Source: a virus
Strand: one strand, 5' to 3'
DNA: 36,506 nt
IMG/VR virus record: IMGVR_UViG_3300035180_001067
Span: 1 to 36,506 of that record
In this document: piece by piece, positions 25,521-29,790 of the stretch
Position numbering within the stretch: the stretch's first letter is position 1
How the letters are laid out: each line of letters begins with the position of its first letter
Notes under the pieces: generated by a model
The model's input: only the letters and a program-made list of their open reading frames with translations
Told to the model about the DNA's origin: nothing
The model's database searches: none
Position numbers and translations under genes: made by a program

Positions 25521-25895
25521 CTATGCGGCCTCCCGTTTGATTTCCAATCCAATCTGGGCGGCTGTGAGAATCATCGCCCCCTCGAGCAGCTTTCGATCTC
25601 CAGGCTCCATGGCGTGCACTGCATCAAAGTCCACCGTCTCGAACGGCCATCGGCGCACACCAAACAGGATTTCATCCGCGCTCACCTCAAGCGCCTTGCA
25701 TAGGGCAGCAAGCTCCGGCGATCTAACTGCGTTTTTGCCGGTTTCCCAGTGGCCTACGGTGCCTTTGCTCTTGCCAATTATTTTGGCCAATCCGAGCGTT
25801 GATAGGCCAGCCTTGTCGCGCGCAGCGGAAATCCGTTTGCCGCAATCCTTTTGGAACTGCAGTTCAGCCGCTGCTTTGATTTCTTTGTCGTTCAT
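25521..25895 (-). CDS. CI-like repressor, XRE-family HTH
   Basis: The product is 124 aa from the ATG at 25895; the frame upstream runs through the operators and is not used. Residues about 17-75 form the HTH (GKRISAARDKAGLSTLGLAK, then IIGKSKGTVGHWETGKNAVR), followed by SPELAALCKALEVSADEILFG, the usual dimerisation-side helices. There is no S24/LexA peptidase domain, so induction would not use RecA-driven self-cleavage. It faces the Cro-like gene across two operators, the standard repressor position. The operators at 25928-25968 and 23784-23824 are its likely targets. Confidence 0.85.
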   Translation of the reverse strand: MNDKEIKAAAELQFQKDCGKRISAARDKAGLSTLGLAKIIGKSKGTVGHWETGKNAVRSPELAALCKALEVSADEILFGVRRWPFETVDFDAVHAMEPGDRKLLEGAMILTAAQIGLEIKREAA

Positions 25896-25975: not shown

Positions 25976-26263
25976 ATGAGCGACCATATTGCATCTGAAC
26001 GAGACGCCCTGCGCCTGGCTGCCGAGATCGTCGGCGGTCAGGCGGCGATTGCCGCTGTTTGTGGCTTCAGTGACCGGCGTCATGTCTGGCCCTGGTTCAA
26101 CACGGGGCGTCGGGTGCCTATCGAGCATTGCCCGGCCATCGAAAAGGCCACCAATGGCGCTGTTTGCCGCTGGCACCTGCGCCAAGACGACTGGCACCGC
26201 ATCTGGCCCGAACTGATCGGGATTGAAGGCGCCCCACCAGTGCCCGACCAGAAGGCGGCTTGA
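25976..26263 (+). CDS. Cro/YdaS-like HTH regulator, probably leaderless
   Basis: The product is 95 aa. Residues about 12-65 (LRLAAEIVGGQAAIAAVCGF, then SDRRHVWPWFNTGRRVPIEH, CPAIEKATNGAV) match the YdaS/Cro-type helix-turn-helix of phages, where GGQAALA ... V-x-x-W ... VPxExCxxIExAT is typical. The ATG is six bases after the -10 box and no later in-frame start exists before the HTH, so translation from a leaderless message is expected. As Cro, it would bind the same operators as the repressor and favour lytic growth. A convergent gene ends 45 bp beyond its stop. Confidence 0.82.
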   Translation: MSDHIASERDALRLAAEIVGGQAAIAAVCGFSDRRHVWPWFNTGRRVPIEHCPAIEKATNGAVCRWHLRQDDWHRIWPELIGIEGAPPVPDQKAA

Positions 26264-26307: not shown

Positions 26308-26646
26308 TTAGTCCAGGCCCAACGCGGCGTGCAACTCTTCGTCCGATTGTTGGCGAGCAGCCTTGTCCTGCGCATGCAGGGCCGACAGATGCGCGAGCCC
26401 TGCCGGATGGCCTAGAAGCTGTTCTGCTAGCCGAAGCGCTTCGGCGGCAGCTGCTGTCAGATGTGTTTCGCCGTTTGCGCCAGATGGGGGTGATGCCATG
26501 ACTGGCCGCACGGTGATGTCTTGCCAGGCGCTGCACATCGGGTCGTTGGCCACATCTGCTGGCATGGCCCGCACGGTGACGCGTGGATTCTCGAAGTCTC
26601 CCAGCTGCGAGAACTCCATTTTGATGATTCGGTATGTGATGTTCAT
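26308..26646 (-). CDS. Hypothetical phage protein with hairpin-masked ribosome binding site
   Basis: The product is 112 aa from the ATG at 26646 (MNITYRIIKMEFSQLGDFEN). A strong AAGGAGG (on the + strand 26653-26659) lies six bases upstream. The frame to 26712 runs through the hairpin and is unlikely to be used. The N-terminal half is beta-like (RVTVRAMPADV, WQDITVRPV), the C-terminal half helical and Ala/Leu-rich. No family recognised. The ribosome site is within the 3' arm of a long stem-loop (26647-26706), so expression may be controlled at translation. Confidence 0.7.
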   Translation of the reverse strand: MNITYRIIKMEFSQLGDFENPRVTVRAMPADVANDPMCSAWQDITVRPVMASPPSGANGETHLTAAAAEALRLAEQLLGHPAGLAHLSALHAQDKAARQQSDEELHAALGLD

Positions 26647-26706
26647 GGGTGCCCTCCTTGGGCTTGCTGGTGTGGAAGCCGCAAGCGTAACCAAGGCAGG
26701 GCGCCC
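26647..26706 (-). promoter_or_regulatory. Long stem-loop sequestering the RBS of the gene at 26646
   Basis: On the - strand the leader has outer arms 26706-26691 and 26661-26647 with 14 pairs, one mismatch (26650/26703) and one bulge (26697), and an inner six-pair stem (26686-26681 with 26667-26662) around a 13-base loop. The Shine-Dalgarno AAGGAGG is paired in the 3' arm and the ATG follows immediately. No T-run follows, so it is not a terminator. A translational switch or RNA-binding-protein site is the natural reading. Confidence 0.65.
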
Positions 26707-26733
26707 ACCCATGCAGAAGGCGGCCTGAGTGCG

Positions 26734-26847
26734 TCACTTGATCTGCCCCGCCATGAGCAGCCACTCGGCCGCCGCTGTTCGCAGTGCGCGCCGGAGCATG
26801 GCAGCTACCGCGGCGCGGGCCCATTCGTCGAGGTTGTCGTTTTGCAT
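26734..26847 (-). CDS. Small hypothetical protein (37 aa)
   Basis: An ORF from the ATG at 26847 reads MQNDNLDEWARAAVAAMLRR and a helical tail ending WLLMAGQIK. Composition looks protein-like and the helix is amphipathic, but the ribosome site is weak (GAGA). It is divergent from the CII-like gene and would be the first gene of the short leftward transcript that continues through the hairpin into the gene at 26646. Confidence 0.45.
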   Translation of the reverse strand: MQNDNLDEWARAAVAAMLRRALRTAAAEWLLMAGQIK

Positions 26848-26920
26848 GACGACAGTCTCTTTTTTTGCCCCGAAGCCGTCATTGCGACGGCTTACGACAG
26901 TGTGGTGAGGCGTCGTAATG
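26845..26920. promoter_or_regulatory. Symmetric divergent control region with 21-bp palindrome
   Basis: The perfect inverted repeat AAGCCGTC (26873-26880) / GACGGCTT (26886-26893) stands between two divergent genes. The two start codons are also embedded in mirror text: CATGACGAC (26845-26853) and GTCGTAATG (26912-26920), and CGACAGT occurs on both sides of the palindrome. No T-run is placed as needed for a terminator. This may be an operator for a regulator that controls both directions. Confidence 0.5.
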
Positions 26921-27298
26921 GATGACACCCCGAACAAAGTGCTTGAGCGTGTTGTGGTCGCGCTCGGTGGCACAAAGCAGATCGCGCCCAGGCTGTGGCC
27001 CGACAAAACGATTGACGACGCGCGGCGCCTGCTGTGCGATTGCCTGAACGACGAGCGCCCGGCCAAGCTGGATCTGTCGCAGGTGCTGTTCATCCTGCGG
27101 CTGGCCAAGGATCACGGTGTGCATGAGGGCATGCACTTTGTTGCCGATTCGGTGGGCTACAGCAGGCCGACACCGGTCGAGCCCGAGGATGAGCGCGCCA
27201 CGCTGCAGCGCGAGTACATCGAGGCTGCCCGCCAGATGGCCAAGGTGGCACAGCGCATGGAAGCGCTGATGGCGCCCACTGTGAGGGCTGTGGCGTGA
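26918..27298 (+). CDS. CII-like phage regulatory protein
   Basis: The product is 126 aa. The N-terminal part (KVLERVVVALGGTKQIAPRL, then DDARRLLCDCLNDERPAKLD) and LSQVLFILRLAKDHGVHEGM read like the HTH-containing phage regulatory CII-type proteins of proteobacterial prophages (a helix, 'G-G-x-x-x-x-A-x-x-L', 'L-x-x-C-L-N-x-x-R-x-x-K-L'). The C-terminus is a charged helix (RATLQREYIEAARQMAKVAQ). It heads the rightward replication operon and its stop overlaps the next start (GTGA, 27295-27298). The family is a moderate-confidence call; a replication-associated DNA-binding protein is the alternative. Confidence 0.6.
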   Translation: MDDTPNKVLERVVVALGGTKQIAPRLWPDKTIDDARRLLCDCLNDERPAKLDLSQVLFILRLAKDHGVHEGMHFVADSVGYSRPTPVEPEDERATLQREYIEAARQMAKVAQRMEALMAPTVRAVA

Positions 27299-29790
27299 GC
27301 GACTACACCGAGTTCCTGCGGCAAAAGATCAAGATGGCCCAGTTCAAGGGGTTTCAGGTTGAGCCGCATGCACTGCACGAGTGCCTGTTCCCCCACCAAC
27401 GTGACATCGTGAAGTGGGCCGTGTTGGGCGGCAACCGCGCCATCTTTGCCAGCTTCGGGCTTGGCAAGAGCGTGATGCAGTGCGAGTGGCTGCGCCAGAC
27501 CATCGGCGTGGCTGGTGGCCTGGGCCTGATCGTCTGCCCGCTGGGCGTGCGTCAGGAACTGATTCGCGATGCGGCAATGCTGGGTATCCGGCTGGTGTTC
27601 ATCCGCAGCGCCAGCGAGATCATCGACGGCCAAGCGTTCTACTGCACCAACTACGAGACGGTGCGCGACGGCAAGCTGAACCCGCAGCAGTTCACAGCCG
27701 TCAGTTTGGATGAGGCGAGCGTGCTGCGAAGCTTTGGCAGCAAAACCTACCAGGAGTTCCTGCCGCTGTTCGAGGGCGTGAAGTTCAAGTTGGTGAACAC
27801 CGCCACGCCAAGCCCCAACCGCTTCAAGGAGCTGATTCACTACGCCGGTTTCTTGGGTGTTATGGACACCGGCCAAGCGCTGACCAGGTTCTTCCAACGC
27901 GACAGCGAGAAGGCCGGAAACCTGACGCTGTACCCGCACAAGGAAACTGAGTTCTGGATGTGGGTAAGCAGCTGGGCTGTGTTCGTTCAGCGCCCCAGCG
28001 ACCTGGGATACAGCGACGAGGGCTACGACCTGCCACCCATCGAGGTGCGCTACCACGAGGTACCCAGCGACTACACCAAGGCCGGGCACGAACGCGATGG
28101 CCAGGCGCTGATGTTTACCGACCCGGCGCTGGGCTTGAGTGCGGCTGCCAGCGAGAAGCGCGACAGCCTGCCGCTGCGCGTCGCCAAGGTGGCCGAGATT
28201 GTCAACGGCAGTGTGGATCATTTCGTGGTGTGGCATGACCTGGAAAGCGAGCGCCATGCTCTGCAGGCGGCTCTGCCCGACGCTGTGAGCGTGTGGGGCA
28301 GCCAGGACCTGGACGAGCGCGAGCAGCGCATCGTGAGCTTTGGCGACGGAGCCTATCGGGTTCTGTCGACCAAGCCGGTGATTGCCGGTAGCGGCTGCAA
28401 CTTCCAGCGCCACTGTCACCGAGAGGTCTTCGCCGGCATCGGCTTCAAGTTCAACGACTTCATTCAGGCCATCCACCGGGTGCAGCGTTTTCAACAGCCG
28501 CATCCGGTGGTGATCGACATCGTCTACAGCGAAGCTGAGCGCGAGGTGTTGCGCACCCTGCAGGCCAAGTGGACACAACACGAGGAGATGGTGAAAAACA
28601 TGACCGAGATCATCAAGAAGTTTGGCCTCAACCAGCTTGCCATGCAGGAGGTTCTGGCCCGCTCCATCGGCGTGAAGCGGCTGCAGGTCAAGGGCGACCT
28701 GTTTGATGTGGCAAATAACGATTGCGTGGAGGAGGCGAAGCTGCAGCCCGAGAACCACGTCGACCTGATCGTCACCAGCATCCCTTTCGCCAACCATTAC
28801 GAGTACAGCCCCAGCTACAACGACTTCGGACACACCGAGGATAACGACCACTTCTGGCGACAGATGGACCATCTGACGCCCGAGCTGCTGCGCATCCTGA
28901 AGCCGGGCCGTATCTACGCCTGCCACGTCAAGGATCGCATCCTTTTTGGCAACGTGACCGGTGCTGGCGCGCCCACCGTGAGCCCGTTCCACTGTGAGGC
29001 CATCATGCATGGCCGCAAGCACGGCTTCGACTACATGGGGCTGATCACCATCGTCACCGACGTGGTGCGCGAAAACAACCAGACCTATCGCCTGGGTTGG
29101 TCTGAGCAGTGCAAAGACGGCACAAAGATGGGCGTGGGCTCGCCTGAGTACGTGGTGCTGTTCCGCAAGCCTCAGACCGACCGGTCAAAGGGTTATGCCG
29201 ATGTGCCGGTGGCCAAGTCGAAGCAGGACTACACCCGCGCTCACTGGCAGGTAGATGCACACGCTTTCTGGCGCAGCAGCGGCAACCGGCAGATCACGGC
29301 CGACGAGCTGGCTGGCCTGGGCCCTGACAAGTTGGCCAGCCTGTTCACGAAGTACAGCTTGCAGCAGGTCTACAGCTACGACTTCCACATCAAGATCGGT
29401 GAGGAGTTGGAGGCCCGCGGCGCGCTGCCATCAACATTCATGAGCCTGGCGCCCGGCAGCCATCACCCGGATGTGTGGCACGACATCAACCGGATGCGCA
29501 CACTCAATGGCGACCAGACGAATCGCAACGTCGAGAAGCATGTCTGCCCGCTGCAGTTCGACATCGTTGACCGACTGATTGAGCGCTACAGCAACCCGGG
29601 CGAGCTGGTCTATGACCCGTTCTGCGGTTTGGGCACCGTACCGTACTGCGCAATCAAGAAGGGCCGGCGCGGCGGTGGCAGCGAGCTGAACGCGGCCTAC
29701 TTTTTGGACCAGGTGCACTACCTGCGCTCAGCCGAACGCGAGTTCACCATGCCTGGGCTGTTTGATGTGCTTGAAGAAGAGGCAGCATGA
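27295..29790 (+). CDS. SNF2/DEAD-like helicase fused to an amino DNA methyltransferase
   Basis: The product is 831 aa from a GTG overlapping the preceding stop. Residues 1-about 400 form a superfamily-2 helicase: Walker A FGLGKS (54-59), motif II SLDEAS (137-142), motif III TATP (169-172), a second RecA-like lobe with LSTKPVIAGSGCNFQ, and motif VI QAIHRVQRFQ (381-390). Residues about 440-831 form a beta-class N4-cytosine/N6-adenine methyltransferase: motif IV TSIPF (484-488; usual form xPP(Y/F)), LLRILKPGRIYACHVKDR, and motif I DPFCGLGTV (764-772), followed by ELNAAYF. It may methylate phage DNA while translocating on it. The stop overlaps the next start by ATGA. Confidence 0.85.
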   Translation: MSDYTEFLRQKIKMAQFKGFQVEPHALHECLFPHQRDIVKWAVLGGNRAIFASFGLGKSVMQCEWLRQTIGVAGGLGLIVCPLGVRQELIRDAAMLGIRLVFIRSASEIIDGQAFYCTNYETVRDGKLNPQQFTAVSLDEASVLRSFGSKTYQEFLPLFEGVKFKLVNTATPSPNRFKELIHYAGFLGVMDTGQALTRFFQRDSEKAGNLTLYPHKETEFWMWVSSWAVFVQRPSDLGYSDEGYDLPPIEVRYHEVPSDYTKAGHERDGQALMFTDPALGLSAAASEKRDSLPLRVAKVAEIVNGSVDHFVVWHDLESERHALQAALPDAVSVWGSQDLDEREQRIVSFGDGAYRVLSTKPVIAGSGCNFQRHCHREVFAGIGFKFNDFIQAIHRVQRFQQPHPVVIDIVYSEAEREVLRTLQAKWTQHEEMVKNMTEIIKKFGLNQLAMQEVLARSIGVKRLQVKGDLFDVANNDCVEEAKLQPENHVDLIVTSIPFANHYEYSPSYNDFGHTEDNDHFWRQMDHLTPELLRILKPGRIYACHVKDRILFGNVTGAGAPTVSPFHCEAIMHGRKHGFDYMGLITIVTDVVRENNQTYRLGWSEQCKDGTKMGVGSPEYVVLFRKPQTDRSKGYADVPVAKSKQDYTRAHWQVDAHAFWRSSGNRQITADELAGLGPDKLASLFTKYSLQQVYSYDFHIKIGEELEARGALPSTFMSLAPGSHHPDVWHDINRMRTLNGDQTNRNVEKHVCPLQFDIVDRLIERYSNPGELVYDPFCGLGTVPYCAIKKGRRGGGSELNAAYFLDQVHYLRSAEREFTMPGLFDVLEEEAA

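Follow-up and report, generated by a model that had tools for sequence, protein, structure and literature searches.

A recurrent hairpin over the start of phage accessory genes, probably an antisense RNA

The sar RNA of phage P22 is a phage antisense RNA of about 70 nt that is directed against the ribosome-binding site (RBS) of ant. In lambda, to our knowledge, neither an ORF nor a hairpin of the kind described here lies between cro and cII. In IS10, the antisense RNA-OUT is 69 nt long, and its first 35 nt are the complement of the region where translation of the transposase mRNA begins; when the two pair, ribosomes are blocked. Changes in the pIN promoter region also make RNA-OUT less stable, and the promoter thus overlaps the antisense RNA (PMC5006887). 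This analysis concerns one 36,506-base IMG/VR virus record (the window, meaning the whole stretch of DNA analysed), in which lambda-like immunity-region genes flank a long hairpin on either side (Table 1). Comparison with relatives indicates that this hairpin is probably an antisense RNA able to block the start of a swappable accessory gene.

An earlier note on this DNA had described the hairpin in the leader of a small gene near cro, with a Shine-Dalgarno sequence (SD) in its 3′ arm, the ATG directly after it and no T-run. Folding and inspection bear out each of these points, the ATG lying at 26646-26644 of the − strand. The outer helices are interrupted by one 1×1 mismatch and one bulge, and there is also a 4-nt bulge. 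The minimum free energy on the gene strand is −40.2 kcal/mol (z −4.09), and none of 200 shuffles is equally stable. The + strand folds still more stably (−45.6 kcal/mol, z −3.90); the 5′ arm of its hairpin is the complement of the SD and start codon of the − strand ORF. This ORF matches no Pfam, PHROG or PADLOC family, and its single near-identical relative is found on contig L003. An alternative in-frame ATG at 26712 has no SD and is unused by relatives.

Table 1. Features of the immunity region in the window (CM, covariance model).
Feature	Position	Strand	Basis or remark
cI-like HTH repressor	25521..25895	−	Pfam/PHROG-type domain matches
cro-like gene, YdaS fold, phrog_35	25976..26263	+	domain matches
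Small ORF, 112 aa, start codon inside hairpin	26308..26646	−	open frame; one near-identical relative
Gene-strand hairpin	26708-26644	−	outer helices 5+5+6 pairs, inner stem 6+2 pairs
SD AAGGAGGG	26659-26652	−	3′ arm of gene-strand hairpin; sequence, and SD-like purine run in relatives
−10-like hexamer TACGCT (TAnnnT in relatives)	26684..26689	−	CM alignment
Antisense-strand hairpin, cro-to-cII transcript	26646..26708	+	fold, covariation, strand asymmetry
Copy of cro 3′ end (15 nt), outer edge of hairpin unit	26714..26728	+	also at 26249-26263
Intrinsic terminator, tR1-like position, after antisense hairpin	26830..26866	+	cro-to-cII strand
CII-like gene, phrog_24214	26918..27298	+	Phage_CP76 match weak, below Pfam cut-off
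Fused helicase and DNA methylase gene, adjoins CII-like gene	27295-29790	+	domain matches

Phages and prophages contain at least 40 related hairpins, most of them from a single bacterial family. Pattern searches located the hairpin in L004, L034, L035 and L036, each time ahead of an unrelated ORF; a CM derived from the pattern-search loci yielded further sites in whole genomes, and a second model was built on 19 sites. The second model has matches in 33 of 400 genomes of the bacterial family (E up to 0.01) and, at E up to 0.001, in 3 of 369 genomes of its class and 3 of 398 of its phylum. Burkholderia phage Bcep176 contains a weak member in front of gp15 (26.4 bits, E 1.2e-4), which suggests that the family rich in the hairpin is the Burkholderiaceae. 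Five matches of the first model were judged to be chance, L057 and L059 having no start codon and L046-L048 being set aside by eye; exact 17-nt matches, found in 29 genome contigs, were also discarded as they occur in about the number expected by chance. Searches of phage and plasmid DNA with the hairpin gave partial, non-significant matches only. No Rfam 15 family matches at its gathering score in the whole window, and among 12 relative loci no sub-threshold Rfam match comes near its gathering score. The hairpin family may be undescribed so far; room for a known relative is left by weak C4 matches and by the Burkholderiales-1 motif, for which Rfam has no entry and the main text of its source (PMC2864571) no description.

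All 44 sites have an ORF of 52 codons or more that begins at a constant position, preceded by an SD-like purine run; members were collected with CMs that include the start codon, and the expected fraction of sites with such an ORF at that codon is at most 0.45. Most of the ORFs are unrelated to one another as judged by Pfam and PHROGs, their matches comprising DUF2513 (three ORFs), KTSC, a Clp-like protease and one PHROG without assigned function that is common to six. The protease ORF (PF00574; L067:1568-2191) is led by a hairpin in a tail-gene neighbourhood, not in an immunity region. The near-identical phage L003 carries a tandem copy of the unit, consisting of a hairpin and a different ORF (L003:8671-9150), that the window is without. 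Its extra 314 bp contain this second hairpin and unrelated ORF, after which come the hairpin and ORF of the window. The 88 nt common to the two copies around the hairpin suggest gain or loss by recombination. In the window, the 15-nt copy of the cro 3′ end is possibly a junction repeat of unit exchange.

The pairing is conserved in relatives, a check that the earlier note had proposed: both-side changes are seen at all 22 pairs. In the alignment of 42 distinct relatives, 84.5% of cells are paired, and the covariation score is 0.453, against 0.132 when shuffled and at most 0.074 when slid. A coding explanation of the hairpin was rejected, since the downstream ORFs are mostly unrelated and the variation is compensatory. 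For imperfect pairs, expectations were taken from shuffles within alignment columns. On the gene strand, 13 G.U pairs are observed against 52 expected (ratio 0.25), and other mismatches are avoided to the same degree (0.25). C.A pairs, which are G.U in the RNA of the opposite strand, are observed 81 times against 109 expected (0.74). A G in the 3′ arm has C as its partner 220 times and T three times; an A has T 71 times and C 49 times. This asymmetry holds in the outer stems, in the SD columns, in 24 held-out members and in 32 members less than 75% identical, and is weaker in the inner stem (0.41 versus 0.73). The z-score, too, is lower for the opposite strand than for the gene strand in 38 of 42 members. 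Because G.U is avoided and C.A tolerated on the gene strand, the selected RNA appears to be the antisense one. The fold under selection is that of a transcript antisense to the ORF, and the strand given in the earlier note looks wrong. The antisense model leaves the purine run in the apical antisense loop unaccounted for. If the strand assignment is true, the substitution asymmetry between G.U and C.A could serve to tell, by means of genomes alone, on which strand a structured RNA lies.

The hairpin element is very probably regulatory. Of the claim that it exerts translational control, the conserved pairing and the location of the SD within the stem stand; the ORF's own leader as the selected structure is not supported, in view of the substitution asymmetry. 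It is unlikely that the hairpin works in cis, as a leader of the ORF's own mRNA in which the SD stays hidden until a signal, such as a protein or small RNA, opens the structure. Its gene-strand fold does hide the SD (mean unpaired fraction 0.22, versus 0.43 in control genes) and beats shuffles both in the window and over the members (mean z −2.23); the good fold in the window counts against the antisense model. The leader predicts the opposite of what is seen, however: G.U should be tolerated and is avoided like mismatches, while C.A is tolerated. Also, no conserved promoter-like element was found upstream of the hairpin. In read-through transcripts, the gene-strand hairpin may nevertheless act. 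Temperature is disfavoured as a signal; an RNA thermometer was rejected because predicted SD accessibility is flat over 20-60 °C (unpaired 0.21 at 20 °C and 0.25 at 60 °C). Upstream translation, likewise raised earlier, is not supported as a general mechanism, no generally conserved upstream ORF having been found. A filter for short ORFs that have an SD-like site and end near the hairpin found 2 of 42, and missed the window's own 26734-26847. This − strand ORF of 37 codons is located upstream of the hairpin, and its sequence overlaps that of the + strand terminator. L035 and L036 likewise have short ORFs there, but the filter did not detect such ORFs generally. A protein or small-RNA partner may act in trans; the simplest partner is the antisense transcript itself.

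Gene maps of the relatives, made with a simple home-made gene caller, repeatedly show one arrangement. Genes that are CII-like or otherwise early, on the opposite strand, are followed by the hairpin and its ORF; next come a cro-like gene, again on the opposite strand, and a cI-like gene on the strand of the ORF. In about half of the mapped loci, the unit has a cII-like gene on one side and a cro-like gene on the other, runs antisense to the early operon and points towards cI. In a PHROG scan, about 8 of 21 upstream neighbours match families with a CII-like name and 3 more share phrog_24214 with the window; phrog_35 is matched by 9 of 12 chosen cro candidates, and a repressor family by 12 of 16 chosen cI candidates. 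The cII-[ORF]-cro-cI position is the PRE slot of lambda. Some units occur at other places in operons, or as tandem copies; L003, L034 and L087 are among these. On the opposite strand, an intrinsic terminator lies no more than 250 nt from the hairpin in 11 of 42 members (expected 1.1); on the gene strand, one lies near the hairpin in 1 of 42.

The strand, the lambda nutR/tR1 slot and these terminators just downstream would all suit a nut- or put-like antitermination RNA in the cro-to-cII transcript, carrying RNA polymerase through the downstream terminator. Such a role is quite unlikely, as it leaves the fixed SD and AUG of an opposite-strand ORF in every member unaccounted for; moreover, most members have no nearby terminator and some are elsewhere in operons (L087). 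The apical loop of the gene strand (GCUCYYACACA) resembles lambda nutR boxA, without the conserved TTT. A NusB/S10 boxA site was rejected: the consensus GYTCTTTAANA (PMC5725501) is absent, the loop reading GYUCYYACAC with variable pyrimidines and A in place of the TTT tract. The apical loop of Bcep176 reads GCTCTTACACA.

Within the hairpin, an unpaired bulge runs into the TAnnnT hexamer. In the CM alignment, which is not anchored on the hexamer, A occupies position 2 in 41 of 42 members and T position 6 in 37 of 40. No −35 box was found beside it, and sigma-54 and extended −10 readings, searched by eye, were not found. The −10-like TAnnnT suggests that the ORF mRNA starts in the apical loop, inside the hairpin; a transcript beginning there is what the earlier note named as refuting its reading. 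Leaders starting in the loop have a predicted unpaired SD fraction of 0.50-0.55, compared with about 0.22 for the full leader. The hexamer inside the hairpin would also fit a read-through insulator only, with the ORF promoter in the hairpin, a gene-strand stem that silences entering transcripts, and no antisense RNA; in some members, divergent start codons lie 12-27 bp from the edge of the hairpin model, in agreement with this. An insulator is very unlikely, since it leaves the strand asymmetry unaccounted for. Membership in the C4 antisense RNA family of phages P1 and P7 (RF01695) is hardly credible: weak full-length matches exist on the antisense strand (window, 23.1 bits, E 0.011; L036, 20 bits, E 0.058), but they score far below the gathering score of 45 bits, L056 has no match, and in the alignment the outer stem makes up most of the match.

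Conserved pairing, strand asymmetry, the fixed SD and AUG, and gene order are computed properties of the hairpin family. The preferred reading, that of an antisense hairpin, envisages a compact gene-start module that would be reused in temperate phages. One strand would provide, for a small accessory ORF, a −10-like element, the SD and the AUG. RNA made from the other strand, which in the window is the early cro-to-cII transcript, would fold into a stable hairpin of about 65 nt; the 5′ arm of this hairpin is complementary to the SD and AUG, and its loop to the presumed 5′ end of the ORF mRNA. No dedicated antisense promoter was found in the ORF start, and therefore the antisense RNA would have to come from the surrounding operon. 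When early lytic transcription makes the antisense hairpin, the accessory ORF would be kept off; without this transcription, mRNA from the internal promoter would be translated. An ORF mRNA starting inside the hairpin would be without the 5′ arm and its SD would be freer, while a read-through transcript would fold and hide the SD. We infer the internal start site, antisense repression in vivo and its timing from sequence. That the antisense hairpin pairs with the ORF mRNA, blocks ribosome binding and keeps the ORF off during early lytic transcription seems rather likelier than the contrary.

It is an evenly balanced possibility that undescribed phage antisense hairpins mark a docking slot in the immunity region, at which unrelated accessory genes are exchanged as ready-made units, each equipped with a start signal and with an antisense off-switch that the lytic operon controls. 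If true, there would be a class of overlooked temperate-phage accessory genes that can be found by their start module rather than by protein homology. Such genes are predicted to be on in lysogens and off during early lytic transcription. The hairpins would then also constitute a natural library of antisense regulators built on one scaffold and aimed at many targets.

Like IS10 RNA-IN/RNA-OUT, the phage hairpin covers SD, AUG and a −10-like element. As with RNA-OUT, the antisense RNA is complementary to the SD and AUG of its target; this follows from its position, and the selected fold is on the opposite strand. Unlike IS10, the phage hairpin has no dedicated antisense promoter that could be seen, no sequence relation to IS10 was found, the ORFs are varied phage genes and not a transposase, and pairing and repression are predicted. 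P22 sar is likewise a phage antisense RNA against the RBS of a gene; it has a single target gene, another locus and its own promoter, whereas the present hairpin family fronts many different ORFs. C4 RNA, too, is a phage antisense hairpin at a ribosome-binding site, with a weak CM match on the same strand, but the present RNA overlaps the gene start and is complementary to it throughout, and its C4 score is below the curated level. With the lambda PRE and nutR-tR1 interval, the hairpin shares its position and orientation, between cro and cII and leftward toward cI.
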